Shown here piece by piece: positions 32,482 to 35,033 of a stretch of DNA of 64,000 nt. The stretch spans positions 1 to 64,000 of the forward strand of contig CAUJEM010000112.1 of the NCBI GenBank assembly GCA_963169915.1, given 5' to 3'. The translations under genes and the position numbers were made by a program. The notes beneath the pieces are model-generated. The model saw only the letters and a list, made by a program, of their open reading frames with translations, did no database searches and was not told where the DNA came from. The DNA is from Myxococcota bacterium (GTDB lineage: Bacteria > Myxococcota_A > Polyangia > Polyangiales > Polyangiaceae). Numbering within the stretch: position 1 is the stretch's first letter; each line of letters begins with the position of its first letter.

Positions 32482-34197
32482 ATGAGGTCGATGGCGTGGG
32501 CGGTGCTGGGGGCCGCTGGGGTGCTGACGTTCGGGGTGGAGGTCCAGGCGGCGACGCTGGAGCTGCGGTCGGGCGATGATCACACCAAGCTCGAGGCCGC
32601 CGGGCCCGGCGATGAGGTGGTCATCTACCCGGGGACGTATCGGTTCCGGGTGCGCCTCACGCGGCAGGGGACGGCCTCGGCGCCCATCGTCCTTCGCGCG
32701 GCGGACCCTAGCCAGCGGCCCGTCTTCGACCTGTCCGGGCAAGCCGTGGAGGACTGGCCGGGCAGCTACACGGGGGGTGATCGCGGGCGAGGCTGCTGGC
32801 AGGTGACGGGCCGCCACTACCAGCTCAGCGGGCTGGAGATCACCGGCTGCCACACCGGCAGCGGCAACGCCGCGGCGATCCGCGCCGTGGGTGCCGAGGA
32901 TCTCCTCGTCCGCGACGTGCTGCTCCACGGGAACGACGCGGGCTTCACGGGGGATGGCGAGCGCATCACGCTGGAGTTCTCGGAGCTGGCCAGCAACGGG
33001 CGAGTCTCCAATCCACCCCAGCACAACGTGTACATGTACGGTGGCTCGTTCACGCTGCGGCACTGCTACGTCCATGACTCCGTGGGCGGACAGAACCTCC
33101 ACCTGCGCACTCGTCAGGCCACCGTGGTGTACAACTGGATCGCTCGCGCCGCCAACTACGAGGTGGACATGATGACGGGCCCCAGCGCGACGCACGAGCT
33201 GCTGTTTCGCGGCAACCTCCTCTGGGGCCACCCCAGTCCCGGCAATGGGGGGCAGGTGATGGTGCTCTACAATGACGCGGGGCGCTCGGACGTGAGCATG
33301 AGGTTGGAGGCGGTGTGGAACACCTTCGTGCTGCGGGGGAGCAGCCGGCCTGCGCTCGTGCGCGTGCGCAATGACACGATCGCGAGCGCGAGCCTCCGCA
33401 TCGCCAACAACATCGTCGTCGGGACGCGCACGGCCTATGTGCTCGCCGCCGGCAGCGCTGGCAACGTCAGCGTGAGCGGCAGCAACAACTGGTTCGAGAC
33501 GGGGAGCAACGTCGGCGCGCTGACGGGCAGCGTGTTCGGTAGTGAGCCCGGCTTCGTGTCGGGCTCCTCGTTTCGGCTGAGCGCTGGCAGCGCGGCCATC
33601 GGAGCGGCAGCCCAGGGCGTCGACGGCGCTCCGGAGCGAGAGTACTTCGAGGACGAGGCCGTGGCGCGGCGCTTCCGGTGGCGGCGGTCGCAGCGTGACT
33701 TGGGCGCGTTCGAGAGCAGCACGAGCGGTGCATCCTTTGGCGCCTACGAGGCTCCGGGCGGCGCGGGTGGGGGCGGCGGCGCGGGCGGAGGCGGCGCCGG
33801 GGGCGGAGGCGGCGGCGCGGGCCAAGGTGGCGGCGGCGGTCAGAGTGGCGGTGGCGGTCAGAGTGGTGTCGCTGGTCAGAGTGGTGTCGCCGGCACAGGT
33901 CAGGCGGGCGGCGCCGCCGCGGGTGTGGGGGGTGGCGCGGGTAGCGGTGCGGCAGGCGCTTCGGGCTCGGGGAGCACCGAGGACGGCGGCTGCGGCTGTC
34001 AGCTCCAGGGCCGCCGCGGGAGCGCGGGCTGGGCGCTCCTCGGGCTCGTGATGGCGATGCTGGGACGCCGGCGCAGGCGCGCGTCAGCGCTTCGCGGCGC
34101 GCTCGAAGATGAGCACGTACTGCTGCGTCAGGGTAAAGCTCCTGGTGAGCTTCAGCCCCGCCTGCTCCGCGGCGGCGATGACGTCCTGAGCCGGTAG
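32482..34197 (+). CDS. Secreted right-handed beta-helix protein with MYXO-CTERM-like tail
   Basis: A 571-residue protein with an N-terminal signal peptide (about residues 1-23, ending VQA). Residues about 30-415 look like a right-handed parallel beta-helix of the pectate lyase/polysaccharide-binding kind, with repeated turns such as YQLSGLEITGCHTGSGNA and LEFSELASNGRVS. A Gly-rich linker follows (AGGGGGGAGQGG), then a MYXO-CTERM-like segment: DGGCGCQ, the hydrophobic helix WALLGLVMAMLG, then RRRRR. Unusually, the frame continues 37 residues beyond the Arg cluster, antisense to the end of the methyltransferase gene. Polysaccharide binding or cleavage at the cell surface is inferred. Confidence 0.83.
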   Translation: MRSMAWAVLGAAGVLTFGVEVQAATLELRSGDDHTKLEAAGPGDEVVIYPGTYRFRVRLTRQGTASAPIVLRAADPSQRPVFDLSGQAVEDWPGSYTGGDRGRGCWQVTGRHYQLSGLEITGCHTGSGNAAAIRAVGAEDLLVRDVLLHGNDAGFTGDGERITLEFSELASNGRVSNPPQHNVYMYGGSFTLRHCYVHDSVGGQNLHLRTRQATVVYNWIARAANYEVDMMTGPSATHELLFRGNLLWGHPSPGNGGQVMVLYNDAGRSDVSMRLEAVWNTFVLRGSSRPALVRVRNDTIASASLRIANNIVVGTRTAYVLAAGSAGNVSVSGSNNWFETGSNVGALTGSVFGSEPGFVSGSSFRLSAGSAAIGAAAQGVDGAPEREYFEDEAVARRFRWRRSQRDLGAFESSTSGASFGAYEAPGGAGGGGGAGGGGAGGGGGGAGQGGGGGQSGGGGQSGVAGQSGVAGTGQAGGAAAGVGGGAGSGAAGASGSGSTEDGGCGCQLQGRRGSAGWALLGLVMAMLGRRRRRASALRGALEDEHVLLRQGKAPGELQPRLLRGGDDVLSR

Positions 34198-34914
34198 GCG
34201 GTGCTCCTTGGGGGGGCCCAGGGTGGCCTCCGGCAGGAAGTCCACCACCGCGATGCGTCCTGCCTCGCGCAGGCGCTCCCGCAGCTTGGTGAGGTAGGCC
34301 ACGCGCCCCTCGATGTGGTGCAGCGTGTCCACGATGAGTGCCACGTCCACCGCCTCCGGCAGCCGCGCGTCATCGGCGGCGCCGAGCACCGGCTGCACGT
34401 TCGAGAGCCCCTCGCGCCGCGCGCGCTCCCCGAGGTAGCGCACCATGTCCGGCTCGATGTCCACCGCGTAGACCCTGCCGCGCGGGGAGCGGCGGGCTAG
34501 CCGCACCGAAAAATAGCCAGTCCCAGCGCCCACGTCCGCCGTGACGCTGGTCGGCGTGAGCCCGAGGGCGTCCAGTACCTGCTCGGGCTGCTGCCAGGCG
34601 TCGCGCTCCGGCGCGTCGAACACCTTGGCCCACTCCTCCCCGTTCTCGAAGCGGTGGTGCATGGCTCCCGCATGGCCGCCGTCAGCCTGCCCGTGCTGGT
34701 GCGAGGCGCCGTGCGCGTGGTGCTCTCCGTGGTGCGCGTGCCCCTCACCGTGCGCGTGGTGGTGCGCGTGGTCAGCGCCCGGCTCACCCGCAGCAGACGC
34801 GGCCGGTGGGCCCTCGTCTCGAGGCTGCCCGCCGCTCACCTCACGGGGTGGGGCGGCGGCGCAGGCGGTGACGAGCAGTGAGGTGACGACGAGCCCCGAG
34901 CGTGCTGAGCGCAT
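34084..34914 (-). CDS. His-rich lipoprotein-type SAM-dependent methyltransferase
   Basis: A 276-residue protein; the start is the ATG at 34914, giving a lipoprotein-like signal (lipobox LVTAC). Residues about 45-85 are very His-rich (repeats like HHAHGEGHAHH), which would bind metal ions. The rest is a class I methyltransferase: motif I ADVGAGTGYFSVRLARR, VYAVDIEPDM, and LIVDTLHHIEGRVAYL. It is odd that a SAM-dependent enzyme should carry an export signal, since SAM is cytoplasmic. A metal or metalloid methylation role is possible but unproven. Its 3' end overlaps the tail of the beta-helix gene by 114 bp on the opposite strand. Confidence 0.82.
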   Translation of the reverse strand: MRSARSGLVVTSLLVTACAAAPPREVSGGQPRDEGPPAASAAGEPGADHAHHHAHGEGHAHHGEHHAHGASHQHGQADGGHAGAMHHRFENGEEWAKVFDAPERDAWQQPEQVLDALGLTPTSVTADVGAGTGYFSVRLARRSPRGRVYAVDIEPDMVRYLGERARREGLSNVQPVLGAADDARLPEAVDVALIVDTLHHIEGRVAYLTKLRERLREAGRIAVVDFLPEATLGPPKEHRLPAQDVIAAAEQAGLKLTRSFTLTQQYVLIFERAAKR

Positions 34915-35033
34915 GGCGCTTCCCCTAGCACGCCCGCACCGCATGAACAGCCAGCGCGCTGCGCGCTGGTGCTGCTCCCCGGTCCTGGCGCCTCGGGCGC
35001 CTCCACCGCGCGCTGGCCGGACCCCTCCGCGGC

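Follow-up and report, generated by a model that had tools for sequence, protein, structure and literature searches.

Introduction

S-Adenosylmethionine (SAM)-dependent methylation is treated as an intracellular reaction. In the titles and opening parts of abstracts that we covered, the phrase 'secreted methyltransferase' occurs for Plasmodiophora brassicae and Mycobacterium tuberculosis, indicating that SAM-methyltransferases can be exported. Such enzymes are assumed to work within host cells, which contain SAM. The same titles and abstract openings, a partial coverage and thus a weak negative, mentioned secreted enzymes of host-associated organisms only and no periplasmic or lipoprotein SAM-methyltransferase. 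Here, we describe a gene for a methyltransferase (protein P0001) that starts with a lipoprotein signal and a His-rich region. It lies in a stretch of 64,000 nucleotides (the window; positions 1 to 64,000 of contig CAUJEM010000112.1, assembly GCA_963169915.1) from a Myxococcota bacterium of the Polyangiaceae. Neither the class I fold nor the lipoprotein signal is new in itself; what is unusual is that they stay combined across phyla.

The closest sequence in the PDB is a methyltransferase from Aquifex aeolicus (3dh0), an entry that names no function (phmmer E-value 4e-18 over query residues 87-260). It has the same fold as P0001 (VIA Z 25.9, root-mean-square deviation 1.8, 184 residues aligned) and shares its N-terminal DPxR region and GPP motif. 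The match begins at chain residue 5, and hence the chain has neither a signal nor a His tether; it also carries HE where P0001 has HH. At the domain level, UbiE/CbiT/BioC-like class I enzymes (Pfam Methyltransf_25, Methyltransf_31 and Methyltransf_11) matched above the Pfam cut-offs, and the UbiE/MenG model of NCBIfam gave 22.2 bits, not reaching its cut-off of 158.35. ArsM, which has conserved active-site cysteines, gave a weak match in the SAM domain (E-value 6.6e-6; 25.8 bits against a cut-off of 263), with a possible shared link to metal(loid) stress. We rejected arsenic methylation as the function of P0001, because this score is far under the cut-off and P0001 has no cysteine beyond that of the lipobox. 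A second exported branch, with proteins from Geminocystis (P0003) and Delftia (P0004), has the same domain, carries a signal by the rule described below and falls inside the exported clade, but differs by a 'GREIAxVM' N-terminus, the absence of a His tether and HE instead of HH.

We favour, with reasonable rather than strong confidence, the reading that P0001 is a Sec-exported, lipid-anchored class I SAM-methyltransferase which acts outside the cytoplasm, carries a metal-binding tether and methylates an extracytoplasmic nucleophile. The existence of an exported clade that has been conserved along with its SAM-site residues would mean either that SAM is available outside the bacterial cytoplasm or that the class I fold has a second use there.

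Results and discussion

A complete methyltransferase domain behind a lipobox and a His-rich tether

The gene occupies positions 34084-34914, as originally predicted, and is read from the minus strand (start ATG at 34914, coding part 34087-34914, stop codon 34084-34086). By eye, an alternative upstream ATG at 34944 has no comparable ribosome-binding site. The predicted layout of a lipobox, about 40 His-dominated residues and a complete class I SAM-methyltransferase domain was confirmed in all three parts. Residues 1-18 (MRSARSGLVVTSLLVTAC) comprise a positively charged start (MRSARSG), a hydrophobic core (LVVTSLLVTA) and the Cys of the lipobox V-T-A-C. Signal-peptide prediction had been proposed as a check, and our home-made rule likewise called the window protein a lipoprotein. 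Cys18, the sole cysteine of the whole protein, was invariant in an alignment of 26 sequences including the window's own copy. This alignment covered 26 of 30 loci (L014, L023, L027 and L029 were omitted), and the invariance is partly a matter of choice, because the rule that picked the starts favours a lipobox.

The 40 residues from 49 to 88 contain 16 His, the highest count among all six-frame open stretches of at least 80 residues in the window (the next were 12 and 11). Among relatives, the His run varies in length and is short in some. Linkers averaged 12.0% His versus 2.7% in the domain, and 62 of 98 linkers had at least 10% His. The constant part of the region was a single residue, His87 (61 of 72 aligned rows), located two residues before a near-invariant Phe (70 of 72).

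Pfam Methyltransf_25 matched P0001 with 56.1 bits (E-value 6.4e-15; cut-off 27). In the AlphaFold model, block means were at least 91 for residues 91-276 and 49-62 for residues 1-90. The model showed an alternating strand-helix order, and its best structural matches among those listed were class I enzymes. By sequence, the residues of motif I, the acidic loop and the later class I motif were all found. Among the matches listed for NCBIfam (25 of 33 for P0001, and partial lists for relatives and a cousin), no model reached its cut-off.

Across the 72-row alignment (without L046, L057, L080, L085, L090, L092, L093, L100 and L110), R104, W107, Q108, D127, the motif I glycines, H199, H200, R204, G233, P234, G253, L262 and Q265 were invariant, and D152 was retained in 71 rows. 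Conservation of motif I holds by construction in the loci from the genome scan, where this motif was the search pattern, and not so in the set of related genomes. We conclude that the class I domain is complete; the retained residues suggest SAM binding and methyl transfer.

The export signal is kept across phyla

A family match at E≤1e-15 was present in 36 of 59 genomes related to that of the window (own genome included). A scan of one genome per species, which took motif I as its pattern and from which we used the best 80 of 498 confirmed loci, gave titles from Myxococcota, Betaproteobacteria, Acidobacteria, Bacteriovoracales and other groups. Signals were called by the home-made rule, not by SignalP, and the same rule was run on every possible start. 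A Sec-type signal was called in this way for 100 of the 105 family members: 27 of 29 from the window's own order, counting its own copy, and 73 of 76 from the genome scan; a further 5 of the 110 loci were left out, as their frames run off the contig. Cytoplasmic controls from related genomes gave a signal in only 1 of 57 (0/30 UbiE and 1/27 GidB), or in 1 of 53 when the frames were profile-verified (0/26 UbiE, four more having no motif by that rule, and 1/27 GidB). UbiE and GidB, with the exception of one GidB, thus lack a signal, unlike the exported family.

Another 36 loci, made up of 7 paralogues and of 29 loci found by searching the order around the acidobacterium Luteitalea, had a signal in 33 cases. 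Of the remaining three, L189 is cut by the contig edge, the frame of L215 extends beyond a contig edge although its signal is present, and L195 is the fusion gene of L224, whose signal lies further upstream. Some rule misses, L024, L060 and L110, resemble signals by eye. Independent numbers are lower than these counts because the locus sets share members: the pairs L008/L063, L009/L048 and L014/L092 each seem to be one gene, and several later loci, L220/L076 and L228/L088 among them, repeat loci of the genome scan.

The type of signal differed between groups. Lipoprotein-type signals were found in 18 of 23 members from Myxococcota or Deltaproteobacteria, and signal-peptidase-I-type signals in 19 of 24 from Betaproteobacteria and 13 of 15 from Acidobacteria (63 of the 80 scan loci, sorted by hand and including L093 with a wrongly picked start). 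That the type changes between phyla while the signal persists argues for a function outside the cytoplasm. In a tree of 109 tips, the 106 tips of the exported family grouped together (support 0.937), apart from three non-exported cousins; these three were the only non-exported tips, Natrinema having been dropped as its motif was not found by the search pattern. A phage link came down to two distant matches, both in Listeria phage records.

Taken together, the signal looks real and used. The original prediction had allowed that it may not be used, a suggestion that does not fit a signal found in 100 of 105 members versus 1 of 57 controls.

Gene neighbourhood and metal links

Pfam named five of the ten neighbours of the window's copy: a purple acid phosphatase, a GGDEF protein with a NIT domain, a two-domain acetate kinase/phosphate propanoyltransferase, a carbonic anhydrase and an FG-GAP repeat protein. 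The other five matched nothing. Within the window's own order, we recognised no partner gene common to the loci.

We rejected a conserved operon partner. When the neighbours of 80 loci were clustered, the commonest cluster, of TctC-type receptors, reached 9 loci, with 7 copies no more than three genes away; another, in 8 loci, looks like wrong-frame sequence. Pfam was run on 140 of 151 immediate neighbours, and none of the 25 families listed, out of 122, had more than 2 members; the 11 left out were ten long frames, several of them probably spurious, and one low-complexity fragment. Since single metal genes would be hidden in such counts, we used seed searches for metal genes.

These searches and the inspection of individual loci revealed links to metal genes in a minority of distant relatives. 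The order copC-gene-copD occurs in L065 and L226, and copC-copD-gene in L069. An outer-membrane efflux protein adjoins the gene in L079 and a DUF2946 protein in L049. A Met/His-rich secreted protein is encoded upstream of the methyltransferase in L038, L039, L217 and L224; in L046 and L057, this partner and the enzyme form one fusion protein with a single signal. In L224, and in L218, which is cut at the contig edge, a second Met/His-rich domain is fused to the methyltransferase. The Met-rich partner domain was unnamed by Pfam and NCBIfam, and its predicted structure had a mean predicted local distance difference test score (pLDDT) of 35.6 (4 sequences).

Iron genes were found on plasmid pMSC49c of Methylosinus sp. 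C49 (L112), where the order is feoB-feoC-methyltransferase-amino acid permease and mbnF (methanobactin synthesis) follows ~7 kb on. We also noted a sigma factor, a PepSY-TM protein and an outer-membrane barrel in this stretch.

Of 9 CopC genes in 21 genomes of the Acidobacterial order, 3 were no more than ~1 kb from the methyltransferase gene, and 6 copies of the Met-rich partner occurred in 23 genomes, again with 3 within ~1 kb. By our arithmetic, the chance expectation for each of these co-location counts is ~0.01 or less. Three kinds of more distant seed match were not counted as links, namely P-type ATPase (3-7 kb away in L042, L044 and L081), FeoB (4.6 kb away in L033) and ppk2 (7 kb away in L048). 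In the exported clade, the genes recognised nearby suggest copper or iron. A substrate and a phenotype could be sought concretely at the fusions and next to copC/copD and feoB.

Some further arrangements were seen in or around these loci. The acidobacterial locus L224 (2666-5639) encodes a Met/His-rich secreted protein, a regulator that we read as MerR-type, and then the fusion of signal peptide, Met/His-rich domain and methyltransferase. On plasmid p2 of Cupriavidus pinatubonensis (L237, 1-8441), a methionine adenosyltransferase gene is accompanied by genes for a heavy-metal P-type ATPase, YHS, DUF2933 and FtsH. The L224 fusion domain has a homologue there, whose annotation as aspartate carbamoyltransferase is probably a misnomer (no Pfam match). 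Directly upstream of the methyltransferase, loci L051, L055 and L068, whose titles are betaproteobacterial, have a short conserved gene, DAANVYREDVYTDRKVGTIR or close to it, and the L051 copy had no Pfam match. By sequence reading, a gene for an EgtD-like histidine-specific methyltransferase lies near the exported one in L050 (+1) and L245 (-3), with Methyltransf_33 in one neighbour.

SAM supply

Export by the twin-arginine translocation (Tat) pathway with SAM already bound is unlikely, because RR-type motifs are rare (3 of 98 family members, and none in the window protein by sequence), and we rejected it. Directly downstream of the exported methyltransferase, a gene for a permease of the amino acid-polyamine-organocation (APC) type was found in Methylosinus (L112, which supplied the search seed), in a Nitrospirota metagenome-assembled genome (L109) and in a genome of an Acidobacterial order (L222), three lineages distant from one another. 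The SAM permease Sam3 of yeast belongs to the APC superfamily. As a lead only, the APC-type permease may be a candidate carrier of SAM or of the product.

Proposed function

In the mechanism that we favour, the Sec machinery would export the protein and Cys18 would be lipidated. The protein would probably be held at the periplasmic face of the outer membrane, because Ala follows the lipobox Cys. The His-rich disordered tether would bind soft or transition metal ions, and the folded domain would bind SAM and methylate an extracytoplasmic nucleophile, which may be a thiol, sulfide or a metal-binding ligand or protein. A transporter or lysed cells would have to supply SAM to the compartment, and methylation would be part of the handling of metal or related stress.

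Several observations weigh against this proposal. SAM is not known to be available outside the cytoplasm. In the family itself, L100 has no visible signal, and L027, which sits inside the exported clade, starts His-rich (MAHHDHDHGH...) and has no signal by the rule or by eye. Residue 85 of the window protein, at the domain boundary, is encoded by an internal ATG that GGGAG precedes by 2 nucleotides; this is a poor candidate start, because the spacing is too short for normal use. Metal-handling Pfam families were found in none of the ten neighbours of the window's copy, metal-gene seeds matched in none of 20 neighbourhoods from the window's own order, and the window's own genome has no CopC. 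A metal link was present in just 12 of the 120 loci compared, not all of them independent (ten by adjacent or fused seeds, plus L079 and L049, whose own neighbours served as seeds; L112 is additional). The independent support from the co-location counts is smaller than the counts, since G060, G061, G084 and G059 had been noticed before counting. The originally proposed search for relatives in metal-resistance loci gave metal links in a minority of distant relatives, and none around the window's own copy or in the 20 neighbourhoods from its order.

The wider notion of a widespread extracytoplasmic SAM-dependent methylation system for copper or iron handling, in which the exported clade would have metal-binding tethers or fused metal-type domains and SAM would be supplied across the inner membrane, possibly by an APC permease, is unlikely in our estimation.

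Alternative explanations

A real but minor possibility is that the exported clade consists of S-methyltransferases acting on reduced sulfur (thiols, sulfide or persulfides), which would detoxify soft nucleophiles at the cell surface, while the His/Met tethers would just buffer metals. Two plasmid-borne non-exported cousins lie in gene runs of a sulfane-sulfur type, which point to thiols or sulfide: that of Cohnella (L269) includes a metal-sensitive regulator, three rhodaneses and DUF302, and that of Paenibacillus (L271) a sulfite exporter, a metal-sensitive regulator, rhodaneses, OsmC, thioredoxin and CcdA. The domain has no Cys, and the invariant His199-His200 could serve as a base. However, the third Bacillota cousin, from Peptoclostridium, is instead accompanied by an ABC transporter and a MurR/RpiR regulator, the Cohnella and Peptoclostridium cousins fall outside the exported clade, and the similarity searches around the exported loci used metal-type seeds only.

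We consider it quite unlikely that the exported protein is not a working methyltransferase but a scavenging or sensing protein for SAM/S-adenosylhomocysteine or nucleosides, or a structural relic. Such a role would suit a periplasm in which SAM is not expected, and an order in which no shared partner gene was recognised. However, SAM-binding and candidate catalytic residues are kept across many phyla (D152 in 71 of 72 rows, H199 and H200 in all 72). A relic is unlikely, because it would not keep residues of these kinds.

It is very improbable that the signal is unused and the enzyme cytoplasmic, with translation starting, for instance, at the internal ATG of residue 85. In favour of this reading, 22 of 99 proteins, that of the window among them, have an ATG 2-4 residues ahead of the domain Phe. 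However, in the segment from the predicted cleavage site to ten residues ahead of the WQxP motif, 41 of 100 proteins contain none of the start codons ATG, GTG and TTG, whereas 39 have an ATG and 19 only GTG or TTG; the remaining protein lacked the motif. A Shine-Dalgarno-like site preceded 1 of 64 internal ATGs; for ATGs within the domain the figure was 29 of 295, and for the chosen starts 41 of 99. Sixty-three internal ATGs thus lack such a site, and the signal itself stays where its type changes between phyla. Cytoplasmic restarts therefore look unlikely, and the downstream start in relatives that the original prediction had considered was not borne out.

Hardly credible, and rejected as a general function, is methylation of the N-terminal His of copper 'histidine-brace' proteins such as CopC: this His is exposed only after signal cleavage, which would explain the need for export, and copC adjoins the gene in three Acidobacterial genomes (by our reading, the mature CopC of L065 would start with His), but CopC is absent at E≤1e-5 from 13 of 21 Acidobacterial genomes with the methyltransferase and from the window's own genome.

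Features of the locus

The coordinates of the gene and of the parts of its product are listed in Table 1.

Table 1. Positions in the window of the methyltransferase gene and its features
Feature	Position	Strand	Basis
Methyltransferase coding sequence, P0001, 276 amino acids	34084..34914 (stop codon included)	minus	Open reading frame and translation; GGGGAAG at 34919-34925, 4 nucleotides before the ATG
Predicted signal peptide, residues 1-17	34864..34914	minus	Sequence; same feature in 100/105 family members by rule
Lipobox Cys18, V-T-A-C, +2 residue Ala	34861..34863	minus	Invariant in 26 aligned same-order sequences, chosen from 30
Pro/Ser/Gly-rich linker, residues 19-48, predicted disordered	34771..34860	minus	Sequence; block pLDDT 52-58
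His-rich tether, residues 49-87, 16 His, ending in conserved His87	34654..34770	minus	His count; His87 in 61/72 aligned rows
Class I SAM-methyltransferase domain and N-terminal helices, residues 88-276	34087..34653	minus	Pfam, AlphaFold; nearest structure 3dh0
SAM-binding motif I, DVGAGTGYF, residues 127-135	34510..34536	minus	Alignment conservation
Invariant His199-His200, candidate active-site residues	34315..34320	minus	72/72 rows
Conserved GPP motif, residues 233-235	34210..34218	minus	G and first P in 72/72 rows, second P in 67/72

On the plus strand, a frame at 32482-34197 overlaps the 3' end of the methyltransferase gene convergently by ~110 bases (34084-34197). It had no Pfam match, and we read its product as a surface protein. 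Its tail resembles what we take to be a MYXO-CTERM sequence, and the frame continues past this tail.

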